Part shown: positions 2,855 to 39,865 of the stretch, piece by piece
Layout of the letters: every line of letters begins with the position of its first letter
How positions within the stretch are numbered: the first letter of the stretch is position 1
DNA from: Candidatus Omnitrophota bacterium
GTDB taxonomy: Bacteria; Omnitrophota; Gorgyraeia; Gygaellales; Profunditerraquicolaceae
Reading direction: 5' to 3'
Assembly: GCA_028718245.1 (NCBI GenBank)
Contig: JAQUME010000004.1
Coordinates: 1 to 40,974 of the forward strand
DNA length: 40,974 bases
Notes under the pieces: generated by a model
The model's database searches: none
What the model saw: only the letters and a program-made list of their open reading frames with translations
What the model was told of the DNA's origin: nothing
Translations under genes and position numbers: made by a program

Positions 2855-4474
2855 ATGAATTATCCACTTATTGCAGAATCCCACCCGAAGCATTACCTAC
2901 TCCACAAGTATTGGGGGCGAAAGCCGCATAATATAATTAAAGCTTATATCAATAAATATTCAAAAAAAAGAGAAACTGTTTTTGATCCCTTTATGGGAAG
3001 TGGTGTAACTATTATCGAGTCTTTAAAGCTACATAGAAAGGCAATAGGAATTGATTTAAATCCCCTTTCATATTTCATAACGAGAGTAACGCTTGAAAAT
3101 ATAAATCTGGATAATTTCAAAGAGCATTTTAATTCGATAGTTGATTCTTCGCAAGACATAGAAAAACAAATTTATGTCACTAAATGCGCAAGATGCAAAG
3201 GAAATGCATTAATAGCTAATACGATATGGGAGGGAGAGGTTCCTAAAAGGATTAGAGGGTTATGCGAAAAATGCGGTATTTTCTTGAAAGATCCAGATAT
3301 TAATGATAAAAAGAATATTAAATTCTTGGAAACTAATTTTCAAAATCTATGCAATAAATATAATATAAGAAATATTCCAAATGAAAATATAATTAGATAT
3401 GTTAAAAGGAGTGGAGCGTCAAAAATAACGGATCTTTTTTCTACCAGGAATGTGATCGCTCTCGGGATATTGAAATCTAAAATTGATCAAGTGAAAGAAT
3501 TGAGCTGTCGGGATTTACTCAATTTGTCATTTTCTTCCTTGTTGCCGAATGTTTCTTCTATGATTCCAGGAAATGCTATTAAGGGTACCGGTAGATCAGG
3601 ATGGGTTATCAGCAAAATGTATATTCCTAGAATTCATACTGAAAAGAATGTTTTTTTAGCATTTCGCCAAAGATTAAATACTATATTAGAAGGGAAAAGA
3701 GAATTAAATTTAAAATCATCTGATAAAAAAGTTAAATTGTTGAATATCTCTAGTGAAAATATCCAAGGCATATTAAAAGACAATTCAGTAGATTATATTT
3801 TTACCGATCCTCCCTATGGAGAAAATATTCCATATTTCGGTTGCAGCATGCTTTTTAATTCATGGTTAGGATTTTGTAGCGATTATTCTAATGAAATAAT
3901 CTGTGATAATTATAGGGGAAAAAATATAGAGGATTATAAAATAAGAATGAGTTCTGTAATGAAAGAATGTTGCAGGGTGTTAAAGCCAAATAAATTCATG
4001 ACAGTGACATTCAATAATAGGGATTTCAAGATTTGGAAAGTAATTTTAGAGTCAATTTGTGGCAATGGATTTATTTTAAACCACATAAACCATCACCACA
4101 GCGCAGTTACATCTGGTACGCAAGGCCTAAATAGGGAAAGCGCTATCAAGGGAGATTTTTTCTATACGTTCAAGAAAACAAAAAAAGTGAAACCGCAAAA
4201 ACAATTAGAATTATCTTTATTTAGCTACAAAGATTTGGAAAGTTACTTGATTAAATTGATTAGAGAGGTTATTGATAGAAAGAATGGAGCTACAATATCA
4301 GAAATATATGAAAATTTAATTCCTATTCTAGTAAATAATAATATGATGGGAAAGTGCGCCGAATATCTTAACAACTTCGATACAATTCTTAGCAATCACT
4401 TTATCTTGATCTCCGAAAAAAACAAACAAACTAAAATGCCGGAATATAAGTGGGGTATTAAAGAAAGTTTTTAG
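2855..4474 (+). CDS. DNA methyltransferase, DPPY type, with zinc ribbon
   Basis: A second SAM-dependent DNA methyltransferase, 539 residues. It starts with the HKYWGRKP-type segment typical of DUF1156-like and related DNA methylases. SAM motif I is DPFMGSG at 44-50 and the catalytic motif DPPY is at 318-321, compatible with N6-adenine or N4-cytosine methylation. A zinc ribbon (C111-x2-C114 and C137-x2-C140) is inserted between the motifs. The last 110 residues look like an added helical domain. The different catalytic motif from the first methyltransferase suggests that the two enzymes modify different bases or strands, as in systems with asymmetric recognition sites. The gene is followed with no real gap by a nuclease gene. 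Confidence 0.86.
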   Translation: MNYPLIAESHPKHYLLHKYWGRKPHNIIKAYINKYSKKRETVFDPFMGSGVTIIESLKLHRKAIGIDLNPLSYFITRVTLENINLDNFKEHFNSIVDSSQDIEKQIYVTKCARCKGNALIANTIWEGEVPKRIRGLCEKCGIFLKDPDINDKKNIKFLETNFQNLCNKYNIRNIPNENIIRYVKRSGASKITDLFSTRNVIALGILKSKIDQVKELSCRDLLNLSFSSLLPNVSSMIPGNAIKGTGRSGWVISKMYIPRIHTEKNVFLAFRQRLNTILEGKRELNLKSSDKKVKLLNISSENIQGILKDNSVDYIFTDPPYGENIPYFGCSMLFNSWLGFCSDYSNEIICDNYRGKNIEDYKIRMSSVMKECCRVLKPNKFMTVTFNNRDFKIWKVILESICGNGFILNHINHHHSAVTSGTQGLNRESAIKGDFFYTFKKTKKVKPQKQLELSLFSYKDLESYLIKLIREVIDRKNGATISEIYENLIPILVNNNMMGKCAEYLNNFDTILSNHFILISEKNKQTKMPEYKWGIKESF

Positions 4475-31455: not shown

Positions 31456-32682
31456 ATGCGTAAAATTCTGCCGGAAAGATCAAAAGATGCATCGGGGGCA
31501 AACCAGGCGATAATTGCCGGATGGCCGAAGCTCTTATGGGATATGGCCAATAAACCGGTTATCCCGAATATGTTGTTGCTCCCGATCTTTTTAACCTTGA
31601 CGCCGGTTGCTTGTTTTGCCCACGAGGCCTACGTTTTGCCGAGGGAATTCTTCTGGAAAGTCATGCGCAGCCCCCCGGACCCCCGCGCGCTGGACGCCCT
31701 TAAAAAACCCCAGGATTTCCATATTTTCGTTACAGTAGTAGCGGGCGTATCGGCCTTTCTTTTCCTTAATTTCCTTTTCCGGCAGACATCTTTAGGCAAA
31801 AAGCTGCACGCGGGCATCGAAAAACTGGCCCCGGCAGGCCCGGTATTCGTGCGCCTGGCTATTGCCGCGGCATTCTTTATTTCCGCAGCCAGCGGTTGTT
31901 TCCTGGGGACGGAGCTTAAGCTGGCCCAGTTACCGGCAGGACCGCTCGTAAAGATGCTCTTGTATGCCTGCAGCATTTCGATATTTTTCGGGTTTCTGAC
32001 GGAGCTGGCCGGGTTCTTATCCCTGGCCGTCTTTGTCACCGGTTTTACGGTATTTGGCGGGTATATGATGACCTATTTTAATTATCTTGGAGAGATCATC
32101 GTGCTGCTGTTTTTTGGCTTGAGGCATTGGTCTTTCGATGCGGCCTTATTCGGTAAGCTGCGCGGTTGGCGGGAGCGTCTTGATATTTACTCCACGACCA
32201 TCGTGCGCGTTTTCTACGGTATAGCGCTTATGTATGCGGCCATAACCGTCAAGTTCCTTCATCCTGATCTTACGGTCAAGGTTGTGAAAGACTGGCACCT
32301 GACGCAGTTCCACTGGCTTTTTCCCTCCGATCCGCTGCTGGTTACCTTGGGCGCGGCGCTTGCCGAAGCCATCATCGGGCTATTCATAATCATCGGGTTT
32401 GAGCTGAGAGCTACCGTCATAATCAGCTTATTTTACATCACCCTCTCCCTGATGTATTTCAGGGAGATCGTCTGGCCGCATTTCATGCTTTACGGCATAT
32501 CCCTCAACCTTATCGTGGAGCCGGAAAGATTCACCTTTGACCATATTATATTTGCCAGGCACCGCAAGCACTGGTGGAGGCACATGCTCGGCAAACCCGT
32601 CCCTTCCGGAGACAATGCCTCTTTGCGTAAAAAAAGTCAGCAAAAACAGAATCATCAGATTTACACAACTGTTAATCTCTAA
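31456..32682 (+). CDS. Polytopic membrane protein, possibly DoxX-like
   Basis: A 408-residue inner-membrane protein with about eight or nine hydrophobic helices after an N-terminal cytoplasmic segment of about 35 residues. The second half (RVFYGIALMYAAITVKF, ALAEAIIGLFIIIGFE, TLSLMYFREIVWPHFML) resembles DoxX-type proteins. The first outer loop has HEAYVLPREFFW, with a histidine next to the membrane. The C-terminal tail is basic. No catalytic motif is recognised. It sits between the ATPase pair and the YHS flavoprotein, so a role in redox or ion balance is possible but unproven. Confidence 0.65.
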   Translation: MRKILPERSKDASGANQAIIAGWPKLLWDMANKPVIPNMLLLPIFLTLTPVACFAHEAYVLPREFFWKVMRSPPDPRALDALKKPQDFHIFVTVVAGVSAFLFLNFLFRQTSLGKKLHAGIEKLAPAGPVFVRLAIAAAFFISAASGCFLGTELKLAQLPAGPLVKMLLYACSISIFFGFLTELAGFLSLAVFVTGFTVFGGYMMTYFNYLGEIIVLLFFGLRHWSFDAALFGKLRGWRERLDIYSTTIVRVFYGIALMYAAITVKFLHPDLTVKVVKDWHLTQFHWLFPSDPLLVTLGAALAEAIIGLFIIIGFELRATVIISLFYITLSLMYFREIVWPHFMLYGISLNLIVEPERFTFDHIIFARHRKHWWRHMLGKPVPSGDNASLRKKSQQKQNHQIYTTVNL

Positions 32683-32696
32683 TAAAATGCATCAGA

Positions 32697-33752
32697 ATGT
32701 TTAAAGACCCCGTTTGCGGAATGGAAGTGGAGAATGAGCGGCTCTCCTTTGAGTTTGAGGGCAGAAGATACTTTTTTTGCTCCCGGGGCTGCCTGGAAAA
32801 ATTCAGGAATTCCCCGAAAGAATCTCTCGGTAAATATATATATGACCTGCTCATTATCGGGGCCGGTCCGGCCGGACTTACCGCCAGCATCTACGCCTCC
32901 GTCCTGAAAATAGATACTTTCCTGCTTACACAGGATTTTGGCGGCCAGGCCGTCGACAGCGCCGGCATTAAGAATTATATGGGATTTGATTTTATAAGCG
33001 GCAAGGAGCTCGTAAATAAATTCGAGCAGCAATTCCTGCGCGAGCATTATCTGGCGCACAGGATAGACGAGGCCATCGGGATAAAGAGGCAGGGGGAGTT
33101 TTTTGAAATACAGGCTAAAGAAACAAGGAAAATGCTCGCGCGCGCCCTGATCATTGCCACGGGAATGAAGCGCAGGGCCCTGGGCATACCGGGGGAAGAA
33201 AGGCTGTTGCGCAGGGGAGTTTTCTATAATCTGGTCCAGGATGCCGCGTTATTCAAGGGTGCCGATGTAGTTGTCGCGGGCGGAGGCAATTCCGGGGTCC
33301 AGGTATCCATCGAGCTTAAAAATCTGGGGTGTCGCGTTTGGCTGATATCAAAAGGCAAGCTTATTGCCGACGCGGGAGACATCGAGCGCCTCAAAAGCAG
33401 CGGCAAGGTGGATATCCTGGAAGGTTTTGAAGTTGTCGAGATCCGGGGAGAAGATAAAGTCGAATGCGCCGTAATCCAGGCTGCGGATGCCTCGGTGACA
33501 AAAGAGATCCCCTGTAAAGGGGTATTTATCGAGGTGGGGTTCCTGCCTAACACCGAGTTTTGCCGGGATCTAGTCGGCCTGAATGAAAAGGGGGAGATAA
33601 AAATAAAGCCGGACTGCTCCACCGGAGCTGAAGGCATATTCGCCTGCGGAGACGTGACCGATTGTTTTGGAAAAAGGATAATCATCGCTTCGGGGGAAGG
33701 TGCCAAGGCGGCCTTAAGTGCGAAAAAATATCTTTTAAGCAGGAAGAAATAA
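32697..33752 (+). CDS. YHS domain fused to a CxxC-less thioredoxin-reductase-like flavoprotein
   Basis: A 351-residue fusion. Residues 1-47 are a YHS metal-binding domain (DPVCGMEV, then FFCSRGCLEKF) with C7, C28 and C32. From about 49 it is a class II flavoprotein disulphide reductase like thioredoxin reductase: FAD motif IIGAGPAGL, FGGQAVDSAGIKNYMGF, ATGMKRRALGIPG, NAD(P) motif VVAGGGNSGVQ, and GIFACGDVTD. The redox pair CxxC normally found after GVxY is replaced by N178-L-V-Q181, so classic thioredoxin reduction is not possible. It could instead reduce a metal held by the YHS domain or a partner protein. It is 14 bases after the membrane-protein gene. Confidence 0.85.
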   Translation: MFKDPVCGMEVENERLSFEFEGRRYFFCSRGCLEKFRNSPKESLGKYIYDLLIIGAGPAGLTASIYASVLKIDTFLLTQDFGGQAVDSAGIKNYMGFDFISGKELVNKFEQQFLREHYLAHRIDEAIGIKRQGEFFEIQAKETRKMLARALIIATGMKRRALGIPGEERLLRRGVFYNLVQDAALFKGADVVVAGGGNSGVQVSIELKNLGCRVWLISKGKLIADAGDIERLKSSGKVDILEGFEVVEIRGEDKVECAVIQAADASVTKEIPCKGVFIEVGFLPNTEFCRDLVGLNEKGEIKIKPDCSTGAEGIFACGDVTDCFGKRIIIASGEGAKAALSAKKYLLSRKK

Positions 33753-34271: not shown

Positions 34272-34850
34272 ATGAGTAAGTCGATTAAAGGGACGAGAAC
34301 GGAGAATAATCTTTTAGCGGCATTTGCCGGAGAATCGCAGGCAAGGAACAGGTACACCTATTTTTCCTCAGCCGCCAAGAAAGAGGGCTATATCCAGATT
34401 GCCGATATCTTTGCCGAGACAGCGGAAAATGAAAAGGAGCACGCCAAGGTATTCTTCAAGCACCTTGAAGGCGGGGATACGGAGATAACCGCCACTTACC
34501 CGGCGGGGATGATCAAGGACACGAAGTGCAACCTTGAGCAAGCCGCGGCGGGTGAGAACCTGGAGTGGACGACCCTGTATTCGGATTTTTCCAGGATCGC
34601 TAAGGACGAGGGATTCCCGGAGATATCCCGCTCTTTTGAGCAGATAGCCAAGGTTGAGCAATTTCATGAGTCAAGATACAGGAAGCTGATCAACAATATA
34701 GTAAATAATGAGGTATTTAAGAAAAAGTCGGCGGTAAAATGGCACTGCATTAACTGCGGTTATATATTTGAGGGGGTAGAGCCGCCTAAAGAGTGCCCGG
34801 CATGCAAGCACCCGCAAAGTTTCTATGAGGTTCTTTGCGAGAACTATTAA
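34272..34850 (+). CDS. rbr: Rubrerythrin
   Basis: A 192-residue cytoplasmic peroxide reductase of usual length, with AAGGAGG upstream. The di-iron ligands are all present: E21, E54, H57, E95, E98, E129 and H132. The C-terminal rubredoxin domain has C159-x2-C162 and C175-x2-C178. It reduces H2O2 to water with electrons from a rubredoxin-type donor. It works with the superoxide reductase at 35474, which makes the peroxide. Its leader is a repeat of the hemerythrin leader. Confidence 0.96.
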   Translation: MSKSIKGTRTENNLLAAFAGESQARNRYTYFSSAAKKEGYIQIADIFAETAENEKEHAKVFFKHLEGGDTEITATYPAGMIKDTKCNLEQAAAGENLEWTTLYSDFSRIAKDEGFPEISRSFEQIAKVEQFHESRYRKLINNIVNNEVFKKKSAVKWHCINCGYIFEGVEPPKECPACKHPQSFYEVLCENY

Positions 34851-34867
34851 AGATAAAGGAGTCGCCG

Positions 34868-35434
34868 ATGAAAGCGTTGGGTATTCTTGCCGGTCCCCGC
34901 AAGGGGCAAGTTACGGACCATCTTCTTGATGAGGTTTTAAGAGGATTGAAAGATAAAGGCGCCGAAGTTAAAAAGGTTTATCTTTACGATCTCAAGATCG
35001 AGCCCTGCCTTGCCTGTAATGCCTGCAAGGATACGCAGGAATGCGTTATAAATGATGATTTCAAAGCAGTGGCGCAGGAGTTGGTCAACGCCGACGCGGT
35101 AGTTTTTGCTTCTCCGGTTTACGTAGGCAATGTCACCTCCGTGGCCAAGGCATTTTTCGACCGGGGTGTGTCTTTGTTTAAAATGACGAACTTCGGCCCG
35201 AAATGGCTGCATAATAAACCTAAGAAAGTAGTGCTGGTCACCGCCTGTTTTGCACCGTTTCCCTTCTCACATATCCTGGGTATTGTGCCGGGGTGCGTCA
35301 ATGCCATGAAAAATTTCTTCGGGATGATGAAGGCAAAGATCAGGGTCATTACTGCTACCGGGGGCTGGGATTTTGACGCCAAAAAGTGTAAAGGCGCCTT
35401 AGCTAAGGCCTATAGAGAGGGTTTAAATATTTAA
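34868..35434 (+). CDS. Flavodoxin-like NAD(P)H:FMN reductase / iron-sulfur flavoprotein
   Basis: About 188 residues from ATG 34868, with AAAGGAG seven bases before it; the frame extends back into rubrerythrin. The FMN fold is shown by MKALGILAGPRKGQVTDHLL and by FASPVYVGNVTSVAKAFFDRG. A cysteine cluster (CLACNACKDTQEC) resembles that of iron-sulfur flavoproteins, though an active cluster is not certain. It lies between rubrerythrin and superoxide reductase and may supply electrons to either. Confidence 0.82.
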   Translation: MKALGILAGPRKGQVTDHLLDEVLRGLKDKGAEVKKVYLYDLKIEPCLACNACKDTQECVINDDFKAVAQELVNADAVVFASPVYVGNVTSVAKAFFDRGVSLFKMTNFGPKWLHNKPKKVVLVTACFAPFPFSHILGIVPGCVNAMKNFFGMMKAKIRVITATGGWDFDAKKCKGALAKAYREGLNI

Positions 35435-35473: not shown

Positions 35474-35869
35474 ATGGCAGATATCAAAGATTTGTTCCAA
35501 AGCGCGGATTGGAAGACGGAGAAACATGTCCCGGTGATAGAATCGCCGGATGCCGTAAACAAGGGGGAGTTTTTCAGGATCACGGTAAGCGTGGGCAAGG
35601 AGATCGCCCATCCCAATAAAACCGAGCACCACATCCGCTGGATAACGGTGCTTTTTCATCCGGCAGGAGAGAAATTCCCCTATCAGATCGCCAAGGCCGA
35701 ATTCGCCGCGCACGGAGAGTCGGTCAACGGCCCGGACACAAGCACGGTATATACGCACCCGGAAGCAGTGTTGAATTTCAAGACCGATAAACCCGGCATG
35801 ATCTACGCATCTAGCTATTGTAACATCCACGGGCTATGGCAGGGCTCCAAGGAGATAAAGATCAAATAG
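35474..35869 (+). CDS. Superoxide reductase, class II (neelaredoxin)
   Basis: A 131-residue enzyme that reduces superoxide to H2O2 without making O2. The iron site ligands are visible: E16 and H18 in EKHVPVIE, H46 in HPN, H52 (or H53) in EHHIRW, and C116 and H119 in SYCNIHG. There is no N-terminal desulforedoxin domain, so it is the one-iron type. A free-standing desulforedoxin is encoded 3.9 kb downstream. AAAGGAG precedes the start. Confidence 0.95.
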   Translation: MADIKDLFQSADWKTEKHVPVIESPDAVNKGEFFRITVSVGKEIAHPNKTEHHIRWITVLFHPAGEKFPYQIAKAEFAAHGESVNGPDTSTVYTHPEAVLNFKTDKPGMIYASSYCNIHGLWQGSKEIKIK

Positions 35870-35900: not shown

Positions 35901-36563
35901 GTGGATATCGTACGCATAATTTCCCACAGCAATGAGGCATTTAGAGACCGGCAGGAGGCAGGCCGGCTTCTTGCCGATGAGTTGAAATATTTGTCCGGAA
36001 AAGAAACCGTGGTGCTGGGCATTCCCCGCGGCGGGGTTATCGTGGCAGCGGAGGTTAGCCGCGTTTTGAACGCCAAGCTGGATATCGTGCTCTCCCGTAA
36101 ATTAGGGGCGCCTTATAACCCGGAGTTGGCGATAGGGGCTGTTACTGAAGACGGCAAGGTTTTTCTCAATGAAACCCTTGCGTCGCAGGCAGGCGCGGAT
36201 AAAGGTTATATAGAGTCGGAAAAGGCGCGGCAGCTGCTTGAGATCAAAGTCCGGATCAAGCGTTTCAGGAAGATTAAACAGAAAATCCCTTTAAAAGGAA
36301 AAACTGTTATTGTTACGGATGATGGGGCAGCAACCGGAGCCACGATGCAGGCAGCGCTTATAGCTTTGCGCCAGGAAAAACCGGCAAAGCTTATCGCAGC
36401 CCTGCCGGTCGCAGCCGGAGAGGCAGTTGAATTGTTAGCTGATTACGCGGATGAAGTGATAGCATTAAGGGTACCGGATTATCTGGGAGCCATCGGCGCC
36501 TTCTACCTCGACTTTAGCCAGAGCTCCGATGAAGAAGTATTGGGAATATTAAAAGATGGATAA
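35901..36563 (+). CDS. Phosphoribosyltransferase-family protein
   Basis: A 220-residue type I phosphoribosyltransferase fold. The PRPP-binding loop is VIVTDDGAATGATM, and the early IPRGGVIVAAEVSRVL and LSRKLGAPYNPELAIGAV blocks match a widespread group annotated as phosphoribosyltransferases of unknown substrate. The start is GTG 35901 with GGAGG very close, so it is somewhat uncertain. The end overlaps the next gene by 8 bp. The family is often fused to or near hydrolases and stress genes. Confidence 0.85.
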   Translation: MDIVRIISHSNEAFRDRQEAGRLLADELKYLSGKETVVLGIPRGGVIVAAEVSRVLNAKLDIVLSRKLGAPYNPELAIGAVTEDGKVFLNETLASQAGADKGYIESEKARQLLEIKVRIKRFRKIKQKIPLKGKTVIVTDDGAATGATMQAALIALRQEKPAKLIAALPVAAGEAVELLADYADEVIALRVPDYLGAIGAFYLDFSQSSDEEVLGILKDG

Positions 36564-36951
36564 GAAGAAATTAGCCCTGGTTCACATAGTCAAGAAGGAG
36601 CTTGGTTTAAGCGATCCCGAGTACAGGGCTATATTGCAGAAGGCTTGCGGGGTAGAGAGCGCCAAAGAGCTGGATAACGAAAAATTCAAGGTATTGATGA
36701 ATTATTTCGTGCGCAGTTCGCATTACCGGCTCAACGCCCAGGGCCTGACCATAAAGCAGAAATTGTTCATTAAATATCTGGCGCAACAATTGCATTGGGA
36801 ACAGGACCATCTGGATAATTTCATCCATAAATATTACGGTAAAACCGGTATTGATACCTTGAGCAGGAAGGAAGCAATTAAGGTGATCGAATCATTGAAG
36901 TACATCAGGCAGCATGAGTCAGGCGCTGTCAAACCGGCAGAGGCAAATTGA
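36556..36951 (+). CDS. GemA/DUF1018-like small protein
   Basis: A 131-residue protein resembling the DUF1018 family, whose known member is the phage Mu gp16/GemA regulator. Matches are the opening LVHIVKKELGLSDPEYRAILQ, then LTIKQKLFIKYL, and the closing LSRKEAIKVIESLKYIRQ. No other phage gene is near. It overlaps the phosphoribosyltransferase gene and the following outer-membrane gene (stop TGA within TTGA), so it is part of a coupled operon. It could be a domesticated phage regulator. Confidence 0.68.
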   Translation: MDKKKLALVHIVKKELGLSDPEYRAILQKACGVESAKELDNEKFKVLMNYFVRSSHYRLNAQGLTIKQKLFIKYLAQQLHWEQDHLDNFIHKYYGKTGIDTLSRKEAIKVIESLKYIRQHESGAVKPAEAN

Positions 36952-38198
36952 AAAGAATAGTCATTTCGCTTATATTTATTTTACTGCCTTTAGCGGCAAG
37001 GGCCGATAGCGGGCATATGCATATGGCTGAGCAAATGACAATGCAGGCATTTTACGGCGGCTATCCTGAAACCCGCGAGGCAAGCGGCACAAGCTGGCAG
37101 CCGGAATCTTCGCCTATGGAAGGGGTGCATTTCACTGCCGCAGGCTGGGATCTTATGGCCCACGGCTATGTATTCGGCATATATGACCACCAGGGCGGTA
37201 AAAGAGGAAAGGATAAAAGTTTCAGCACCAGCATGTTCATGTTGATGGGTGACCGTAAGGCCGGTCCAGGGATACTTGGTTTCCGCAGTATGCTCTCCCT
37301 TGACCCGCTGATGGGCAAACGCGGTTATCCTTTATTGTTCCAGACAGGGGAGACCTATGACGGAATTCATCCTTTGATAGACCGCCAGCATCCGCATGAT
37401 TTTTTCATGGAGGAAGCAGTGACTTACAGCCTTCCGCTTTCAGAAAAGAGCTCTCTGTTCGGTTATTTTGGCCTGCCGGGTGAGCCGGCATTGGGGCCGC
37501 CGGCTTTTATGCACCGGTTTTCGGCGATGGATAACCCCGAAGCGCCCTTAAGCCATCATTGGCTGGATTCAACGCATATCACATTCGGGGTGGCCACATT
37601 AGGATATATATTCGGCAACTTTAAGATCGACGCCTCCGTATTCCGGGGCAGGGAACCGAATGAAAACCGCTGGGAGATGGAATCGCCGAAATTCGATTCC
37701 TATTCGGCGCGGCTTACCTTCAATCCCACTGAAAATTTATCTTTCCAGGGAAGTTACGGCTACCTGGATTCACCGGAGCAGCTGGAGCCCTCCGTTGATA
37801 TTGCCAGGATCACTGCCTCGGCGATATATAACCGGGATTTTAAGAATGGGGTGTGGCAGACGACATTTGCCTGGGGCCGCAATGATAAAAAGCCCGGGCT
37901 TGATACCAATGCCTTCCTGCTTGAATCAGCCCTTAACTTCTCTAAGACGCATACCTGGTTTAGCCGCTTTGAATATGTGCAGAAGGATGAGCTTTTTGTA
38001 GAAGGGGACCCGATGGCCGGCAAGAGTTATGACGTTAAAAAGTTTACCCTGGGTTATGTTTATGATTTTCCCGAATGGAATAATCTGCAATTGGGCCTGG
38101 GAAGCTCATACAGCATACATTTTATATCTAAGACGCTTGAAGAAGTTTACTCGCGTCTGCCGCAATCGTATTTGGTATTCGTGCGCGTTAAATTGTGA
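36948..38198 (+). CDS. Outer-membrane β-barrel protein of a metal-resistance-associated family
   Basis: A 416-residue exported protein starting at TTG 36948, overlapping the preceding stop. The signal peptide ends ARADS, followed by a His/Met-rich mature start (GHMHMAEQMTM). Conserved blocks include GTSWQPESSPMEGVHF, SLDPLMGKRGYPLLFQTGE, DRQHPHDFFMEE and MHRFSAMD. Alternating β-strands continue to a final VKL. This family of unknown function is, from memory, often found near copper or other metal-resistance genes. A porin-like barrel with metal-binding ends is likely. Confidence 0.72.
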   Translation: MKRIVISLIFILLPLAARADSGHMHMAEQMTMQAFYGGYPETREASGTSWQPESSPMEGVHFTAAGWDLMAHGYVFGIYDHQGGKRGKDKSFSTSMFMLMGDRKAGPGILGFRSMLSLDPLMGKRGYPLLFQTGETYDGIHPLIDRQHPHDFFMEEAVTYSLPLSEKSSLFGYFGLPGEPALGPPAFMHRFSAMDNPEAPLSHHWLDSTHITFGVATLGYIFGNFKIDASVFRGREPNENRWEMESPKFDSYSARLTFNPTENLSFQGSYGYLDSPEQLEPSVDIARITASAIYNRDFKNGVWQTTFAWGRNDKKPGLDTNAFLLESALNFSKTHTWFSRFEYVQKDELFVEGDPMAGKSYDVKKFTLGYVYDFPEWNNLQLGLGSSYSIHFISKTLEEVYSRLPQSYLVFVRVKL

Positions 38199-38220: not shown

Positions 38221-39486
38221 ATGAAAGGTGCCGTCAAAGTAGAAAATAGGGTCAATTTCATCAAAAAGGTTTCATCATTCACTATTTTAGGGGATCCCGG
38301 ATGCGACGGAATGGGAGTGGAGATAATGACCACCTTTGCCAAGGCAATGAACTGCACGGATACTGGCTTCAAGATCATCCTGGGCGATCTTGTCCCCTTC
38401 GGCCTGGAGGAATTCTATAAACACATTCACGGCATCATTAACAATATCTCCGGGAATCCCGTCTATACATTATGCGGCAACCATGATACCGACTACTACG
38501 TAAAATATTTTGGGCTAAAAGATTATATCCTGGTAAACGAGGATCTATTGATCGTTGTCCTGGATAACTCTAAACGGATATTCGAGGCAGATACCCTTAA
38601 ATTCCTTGAGGAGTCCCTTAAAGGCTACATTCGCCGCAATACCTTGATATTATTCCATATACCCGTGCCTAACAGCTTTTCTCCCAACAGCATGAAGATG
38701 GAAGAGTGGCAGAAGCTTAAATCCGTTATGGAACCGTATAAGGAAAATATCAGATATATTTTGTCGGGGCACGTCCACTCTTATTTTGAGGAGAATGTTG
38801 ACGGCTATAAAGTTATCGTATCCGCCGGCGGCGGGGCAAGATTAGATTTTTTCGGCCGGCTTCCGGATAAGAAGAGTTCGTTTCATCACGTATTAAGGTT
38901 TTATTTTGACAAGGATTCCCGGATCAAGTATGAATATGTGTCCCTGGCCGATAAATCTTATGACCGCGAGATAAAGAACAAGAAGATCCATCAATATCTT
39001 AGCGAAGCTTTTGAGAGCGAATCAATGGCGCATATCCGTTATCAATTTTACGCCGATGATGCCCATGAAAAGGGATTTATCGGTATAGAGAAACTTTTCC
39101 GGGCCTTATCAAAGTCAGCCTTCTATCACGCTAAGAATTATTTCAGCGTTTTAAACAAGCTGCAGGGTATCGGGTATAATCTTGAAGAGAGCCGGGAGGC
39201 CGAGAAGCTGGATACAGAGCGGCTGCGTTCCAGGTATTTGCCTTATTCCGTCAAGGCCCGCTTGCCTCTTAACCAGTATGCTTTTGGTGAGGCCTATGGG
39301 GCCAGGAATAATTATTTGGGACTCTTGCCGGAAGCGATCCATGCCTATGAGTCCGGAGAGGATATCGGGATCGCCTCTTATTATGTATGTACCTCCTGCG
39401 GCAATACCGGGCGCTTGGAACAGGGGCAGGAACTGGAGCATTGCCCTATATGCGGTGCGCCTTTGGATAAAATAATTAAAATGTAG
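38221..39486 (+). CDS. Metallophosphoesterase fused to a degenerate rubrerythrin-like domain
   Basis: A 421-residue fusion I have not seen described. Residues 1-245 are a calcineurin-like metallophosphoesterase with GDPG (D25), GDLVPFG, GNHD, LFHIP and GHVHSY; the usual D-x-H of motif 1 is D25-P-G, so one metal ligand is missing. From 258 the sequence matches the first helix pair of rubrerythrin (FESESMAHIRYQFYADDA), with E267 and H303 kept but A300 in place of the bridging glutamate. The C-terminus is a rubredoxin-like ribbon (C390/C393/C408/C411). A complete di-iron site is therefore doubtful. The domain may act in docking or in iron or redox sensing that controls the phosphoesterase. Confidence 0.85.
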   Translation: MKGAVKVENRVNFIKKVSSFTILGDPGCDGMGVEIMTTFAKAMNCTDTGFKIILGDLVPFGLEEFYKHIHGIINNISGNPVYTLCGNHDTDYYVKYFGLKDYILVNEDLLIVVLDNSKRIFEADTLKFLEESLKGYIRRNTLILFHIPVPNSFSPNSMKMEEWQKLKSVMEPYKENIRYILSGHVHSYFEENVDGYKVIVSAGGGARLDFFGRLPDKKSSFHHVLRFYFDKDSRIKYEYVSLADKSYDREIKNKKIHQYLSEAFESESMAHIRYQFYADDAHEKGFIGIEKLFRALSKSAFYHAKNYFSVLNKLQGIGYNLEESREAEKLDTERLRSRYLPYSVKARLPLNQYAFGEAYGARNNYLGLLPEAIHAYESGEDIGIASYYVCTSCGNTGRLEQGQELEHCPICGAPLDKIIKM

Positions 39487-39535: not shown

Positions 39536-39646
39536 ATGTGTCAAAGTTGCGGGTGTACACCGTGTGAGAAATGCGGCAAACCCATTGAAAATGGGGTTTG
39601 CAGCGGATGCAAAAAGAAATCAAGCGAGTGTGTTTGTAAAAAGTAG
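39536..39646 (+). CDS. 36-residue cysteine-rich peptide
   Basis: ATG 39536 follows AAAGGAGGTGGCCT. The peptide has nine cysteines in 36 residues (C2, C5, C7, C10, C13, C22, C25, C32, C34), several as CxxC or CxC, and a basic ending. This is the pattern of a metallothionein-like or small zinc/iron-binding peptide. Placed between the phosphoesterase-rubrerythrin fusion and a desulforedoxin gene, it could store or buffer metal. The strong ribosome site supports it. Confidence 0.65.
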   Translation: MCQSCGCTPCEKCGKPIENGVCSGCKKKSSECVCKK

Positions 39647-39739: not shown

Positions 39740-39865
39740 ATGGCGGTCAAATGCTTGGGAGAGAAATATCGTTGTTCAGTCTGCGGTAATGAGGTCACAG
39801 TGACCAAGGTAGGCGGCGGGGAGCTGGTCTGCTGCAATAAACCGATGGAAAAAATAGAGGGATAA
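39740..39865 (+). CDS. Desulforedoxin (free-standing 41-residue protein)
   Basis: A 41-residue rubredoxin-like protein with the exact desulforedoxin cysteine spacing: C12-x2-C15 and C31-C32, in RCSVCGNEV and GGGELVCCNKPM. It binds one Fe in a Cys4 site and probably dimerises. In two-iron superoxide reductases this domain is fused to the catalytic domain. Here the catalytic protein (35474-35869) is separate, so this small protein may be its electron donor. An AAGGA site lies upstream. Confidence 0.9.
   Translation: MAVKCLGEKYRCSVCGNEVTVTKVGGGELVCCNKPMEKIEG

Follow-up and report, generated by a model that had tools for sequence, protein, structure and literature searches.

A metallophosphoesterase-rubrerythrin fusion in Omnitrophota with altered metal sites, a candidate redox-controlled phosphodiesterase

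The calcineurin superfamily comprises many phosphatases and phosphodiesterases. In the window studied here (the whole stretch of DNA that was analysed, 40,974 nucleotides, from a 1.2 Mb draft genome in 99 contigs), a domain of this superfamily is encoded in one gene together with a rubrerythrin, and the question raised by this locus is what such a protein could do when both of its parts depart from the textbook metal ligands. An initial annotation had proposed a fusion of these two modules with altered metal sites in each; both proposals held, since the open reading frame is intact and has homologous full-length fusions, and since motif I and the di-iron ligands indeed differ from the textbook ones.

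Architecture and distribution of the fusion

The gene (Table 1) opens with an ATG preceded by GGAG, 22 bp after the preceding gene, and its product is most likely one cytosolic protein. The domain-architecture search and structure prediction proposed with the initial annotation both bore it out. In Pfam, Metallophos (PF00149) was matched at residues 20-188 (E 4e-7, 31.1 bits vs a curated cut-off of 21.5) and Rubrerythrin at residues 259-316 (E 3e-8, 34.5 bits vs 22.8), with a rubredoxin-like ribbon (388-417) below threshold. The C-terminal part had been described as the first half of a rubrerythrin only; this did not stand, because phmmer against solved structures aligned residues 252-419 with P. 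furiosus rubrerythrin (1nnq) over its entire length (E 1.2e-25), so that it is a complete rubrerythrin with rubredoxin ribbon, including both bundle halves, the second being too diverged for the Pfam model. Moreover, the model built from a deeper alignment (pLDDT 93.6, pTM 0.86), used in place of a shallow-alignment model (pLDDT 72.8), contains the four helices and the ribbon, and its rubrerythrin half superposes on 1nnq with a target TM of 0.89 (rmsd 1.6 over 164 columns). Compared with the P. furiosus protein, to which the C-terminal part is 36% identical over its full length and with which it shares the four-helix bundle and rubredoxin ribbon, the fusion has an added N-terminal phosphoesterase.

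Table 1. Features of the fusion gene, its surroundings and the loci of stand-alone relatives (window coordinates unless a locus is named)
Feature	Position	Strand	Details
Separate normal rubrerythrin	34272..34850	+	NF045767, 295 bits; 3.4 kb upstream of fusion
NADPH-dependent FMN reductase-like flavoprotein	34835..35434	+	
Superoxide reductase, neelaredoxin type	35474..35869	+	
Three close-packed genes: phosphoribosyltransferase, GemA-domain protein, protein with signal-like N-terminus	35901..38198	+	Directly upstream of fusion
Fusion gene: metallophosphoesterase, rubrerythrin bundle, rubredoxin ribbon	38221..39486	+	421 aa; ORF, Pfam, phmmer, full-length homologues
Metallophosphoesterase domain, residues 1-248	38221..38964	+	Alignment; fold match to Rv0805 and GpdQ
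Motif I, residues G24-D29 (GDPGCD)	38290..38307	+	Gly for motif-1 His, then invariant Cys28
Rubrerythrin-type four-helix bundle, residues ~252-377	38974..39351	+	phmmer, structure model, ligand columns
Bundle helices of fusion			Residues 254-283, 287-310, 317-345, 349-377
Rubredoxin-type ribbon, residues 386-421	39376..39483	+	Cys390, 393, 408, 411
36-aa cysteine-rich mini-protein (MCQSCGC...)	39536..39646	+	Downstream of fusion
Desulforedoxin	39740..39865	+	41 aa; PF06397; downstream of fusion
Stand-alone GDxGC genes with MsrA/B, VIT1, ferritin-like or rubrerythrin neighbours	L026:294-1424, L027:711-1472, L018:2450-2872, L029:842-1474		

That two genes were joined by misassembly or a frameshift, a possibility to which the draft state of the source assembly (99 contigs) could lend weight and which had been named as what would undo the annotation, is extremely improbable and is refuted by the same join in ten further full-length fusions (39-81% identity) from separate assemblies in two phyla. 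The spread of the fusion was judged within Omnitrophota and Spirochaetota. It was found at full length in at least seven Omnitrophota-type loci, the full-length loci beyond the window being G049 (L003), G093 (L004 = L009), G075 (L005 = L011 = L016), G169 (L017), L010 and L008, of which L009, L010 and L011 are labelled Omnitrophota; within this phylum, it occurs in 4 of 384 genomes. Four other fusions (L012-L015) lie in Spirochaetaceae/Treponema bins, presumably of termite-gut origin as we read the bin names, and in a further genome of the spirochaete phylum (G453) the gene is split across two contig ends (L050/L051). The bin of L008 is labelled Paceibacterota, yet its fusion is 81% identical to those of Omnitrophota, and misbinning or transfer is therefore likely.

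In a tree of the phosphoesterase domain, the fusions form one group against 11 stand-alone relatives (support 100/100), which indicates that the fusion arose once; the same tree sets a five-member clade containing the window protein (hereafter the window clade) apart from L011, L017 and the spirochaete sequences (95/92). This distribution would fit either an ancient fusion event or a transfer from one of the two phyla to the other. A viral or phage origin was ruled out, as no relative appeared in viral contigs or phage records, and spread by plasmids was likewise set aside, the plasmid search having returned a stand-alone rubrerythrin match only.

In line with the initial annotation, which knew of no described protein of this design, none was found in a literature search that left subscription journals mostly outside its reach, and the main text of a survey of 2631 rubrerythrins contains no word beginning with "phospho". 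While each module comes from a known superfamily, their fusion thus appears, on this limited evidence, to be undescribed.

The GDxGC phosphoesterase half

The solved structures closest to the N-terminal domain, by sequence profile and by fold, are Rv0805 and GpdQ, which together with CpdA are its best matches among known enzymes. The fusion shares motifs II-V with them (GD, GNHD, H and GHxH) and differs in having GDxGC for DxH, besides its rubrerythrin. Across 18 aligned domains (7 fused and 11 stand-alone phosphoesterases from other Omnitrophota, 26-80% identity), the positions G24, D25, G27, C28, G55, D56, G86, N87, H88, H146, H184 and H186 are invariant, and so they remain in a wider set of 22 (11 fused and 11 stand-alone). 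The motif-1 histidine was correctly reported as missing, with G27 in its place, but simple ligand loss does not describe it: all 22 domains read G-D-x-G-C, the cysteine standing three residues past the motif-1 aspartate (D25-P-G27-C28 in the window protein), and they form a coherent subfamily. Since GDxGC is invariant in every domain examined, the absent histidine is a hallmark of the subfamily, not decay. DxH is found in nearly all other phosphoesterases sampled from Omnitrophota, and the two others of the source genome carry motif I as SDTH and GDIVG, proteins that we take from these motifs to be of the YfcE and YmdB kinds, respectively.

Purple acid phosphatases have a calcineurin-like fold with a non-DxH motif I (GDxG). 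Because such subfamilies exist, these and the YmdB-like protein among them, membership of the PF00149 superfamily stands despite the altered motif, and PF00149 matches all 18 relatives. Membership of the purple acid phosphatases themselves was ruled out by motif II, where their tyrosine ligand (GDxxY) is absent from the fusions (GDLVP in the window protein, GD-L/I-V-P/A across fusions). The NCBIfam equivalog model of CpdA (NF008359) also matches all 18 relatives, and the window protein, at 36.6 bits, lies far below its cut-off of 225.

Given that all other catalytic residues are invariant in the GDxGC subfamily, phosphoesterase activity is expected of it. We mapped the residues of the fusion onto the metal sites of GpdQ and Rv0805 by motif alignment, assuming what is generally known of those enzymes, and Cys28 emerges as the obvious candidate to stand in for the motif-1 histidine, possibly as a thiolate ligand. 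The uniform cysteine predicts a metal site for which we found no description among the solved relatives compared. In PhoD, an enzyme of this fold, a cysteine thiolate (Cys-180) is a ligand of Fe3+ (PMC4223295); it replaces an aspartate of the ligand set, whereas Cys28 of the fusion is at another position, so the substitution is a different one.

The rubrerythrin half and its altered ligands

The ligand columns of the rubrerythrin half were tallied over 34 sequences. The di-iron ligands E20, E53, H56, E94, E97, E127 and H130 correspond in the window protein to E267, A300, H303, E328, D331, R362 and Y365, and the set is thus incomplete. Retention of E267 and H303 and replacement of a bridging glutamate by A300 had already been noted in the initial annotation; D331, R362 (both for Glu) and Y365 (for His) are further changes. 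All five members of the window clade have A300, D331, R/K362 and Y365, in place of E53, E97, E127 and H130 of the P. furiosus protein, whereas the other six fusions and all 12 stand-alone rubrerythrins keep Glu300, Glu331, Glu362 and His365. Every sequence has E267 and E328, and H303 is present in nearly all, with Gln instead in L011; the set is otherwise full in L011 and complete in the sister fusions L017 and L012-L015. From these columns, both bridging carboxylates and one histidine have been lost in the window clade only, a loss most simply placed on its stem branch, and peroxidase activity is not expected for the window protein.

The four cysteines of the ribbon (C390, C393, C408 and C411, as CxxC...CxxC) are invariant in every fusion, in agreement with the rubredoxin assigned earlier, and the ribbon, at 78-91% identity, is conserved like the rest of the protein. 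Furthermore, the altered rubrerythrin half is still under purifying selection: by crude counts at near-saturated synonymous sites, its pN/pS is 0.13-0.23 in the window clade, not above the 0.22-0.29 of the spirochaete half with an intact site, and that of the phosphoesterase half is 0.09-0.15. The clade-specific exchange of di-iron ligands, Glu for Arg/Lys among them, under such selection offers a natural experiment in a ferritin-like bundle that outlives its metal site. In this context, the R2 proteins of class Ie ribonucleotide reductases (QSK/VPK), in whose ferritin-like bundle metal-binding glutamates are replaced, with lysine among the substitutes, are still functional (PMC11846895); their likeness to the window-clade bundle is an analogy for a metal-free bundle only and implies no radical chemistry.

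Gene neighbourhood and candidate function

The gene had been placed in an oxygen-defence region, and the rubrerythrin, superoxide reductase, FMN reductase-like and desulforedoxin genes around it (Table 1) confirm this. Desulforedoxin adjoins the fusion in five of the seven Omnitrophota-type loci, downstream in the window, L003, L009 and L010 and upstream in L011. It is not a universal partner, since no desulforedoxin was present in the flanks examined of the spirochaete fusions; desulforedoxin aside, the neighbourhoods differ between the two phyla. Directly after the fusion in L008, a short fragment (3570-3640) resembles a truncated desulforedoxin. Relatives of the 36-aa mini-protein, for which Pfam gave no match, also adjoin the fusion in L003 and L009, with their order relative to desulforedoxin reversed. 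Among stand-alone GDxGC loci, MsrA/B, VIT1, ferritin or rubrerythrin genes lie within 1.5 kb in 4 of 12, against 1 of 29 control phosphoesterase loci, a comparison that is a lead only, its categories having been chosen after inspection.

As the best explanation, which we hold tentatively and at somewhat less than an even chance, the fusion would act in the cytosol as a CpdA/Rv0805/GpdQ-type phosphodiesterase with a dinuclear metal site, which an attached redox module tunes or keeps reduced. The N-terminal module would be a dinuclear-metal phosphoesterase, most like the class III nucleotide phosphodiesterases and GpdQ, in which Asp25, Asp56 and His186 probably bind the first metal, together with the putative thiolate of Cys28 instead of the usual histidine, giving a thiolate-ligated site that perhaps contains iron. 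The C-terminal module descends from a full rubrerythrin, and in the sister fusions the retained di-iron centre could react with peroxide; in the window clade, its loss on one branch would have left a structural four-helix bundle, in whose core the basic residue (Arg/Lys) could form a salt bridge with the remaining carboxylates, and a rubredoxin iron site. This rubredoxin may keep an oxidation-sensitive phosphodiesterase site reduced, or tune it, under oxygen stress, with the neighbouring desulforedoxin as a possible electron partner.

Rubrerythrins form multimers, and the C-terminal half of the window clade might instead be an oligomerisation or folding scaffold for an ordinary phosphodiesterase, with no redox coupling. 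We consider this rather unlikely: ligands lost in all five members, with fold and purifying selection retained, are what a scaffold would show, but four cysteines invariant in every fusion and a well-conserved ribbon would be needless for it, and the frequent desulforedoxin neighbour speaks against it as well. Somewhat less probable is a bifunctional protein without gating, primarily a peroxidase or oxygen reductase, whose phosphoesterase would serve the same pathway by acting on a phosphate compound that is damaged or arises under stress. The sister fusions of Omnitrophota and spirochaetes, with their di-iron set (Gln at 303 in L011), the oxygen-defence genes beside the window fusion and the MsrA/B, VIT1, ferritin and rubrerythrin genes adjoining stand-alone relatives are in its favour; the window protein, however, lacks one histidine and the two bridging glutamates and is not expected to act as a peroxidase, and a normal rubrerythrin is already encoded upstream. 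That both metal sites are degenerate, leaving a non-catalytic binding or regulatory protein, could account for the absent motif-1 histidine and the lost di-iron ligands, but is improbable in view of the low pN/pS of the phosphoesterase half and of Cys28 and the other motif residues, invariant in 18 sequences of such divergent identity.

Returning to the redox-tuned phosphodiesterase, a role as a redox- or iron-gated enzyme acting on a nucleotide signal is possible. Turnover of cAMP was set aside and cAMP is not favoured as substrate, because no class III nucleotide cyclase was found in the same genome. A bolder reading, which we regard as doubtful, would make GDxGC a distinct iron-thiolate subfamily of calcineurin-like proteins and the fusion a peroxide- or redox-sensing phosphodiesterase, with an ancestral di-iron sensor that signalled oxidant to the phosphoesterase and, in the window clade, was rewired as a bundle free of metal, the rubredoxin iron being the sole switch; if true, oxygen defence would be linked directly to a phosphate-based signal or metabolite. 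More generally, the pairing of a GDxGC phosphoesterase with a rubrerythrin is a candidate redox-controlled phosphodiesterase and may make such a signal or metabolite depend on iron or redox state.

No RNA elements were found near the fusion gene, and promoter and terminator scans there gave results no better than shuffled sequence. Directly upstream lies a 416-aa open reading frame (36948-38198) whose N-terminus resembles a signal peptide and which matched no family significantly; between it and the phosphoribosyltransferase gene, a protein with a GemA (phage Mu) domain is encoded (36556-36951), and no further phage gene was recognised in its vicinity. Further upstream, a 408-aa membrane-protein-like frame without a Pfam match (31456-32682) lies near a P-type ATPase gene, and a single open reading frame at 32697-33752 combines a YHS domain (residues 3-42) with a thioredoxin-reductase-like flavoprotein.
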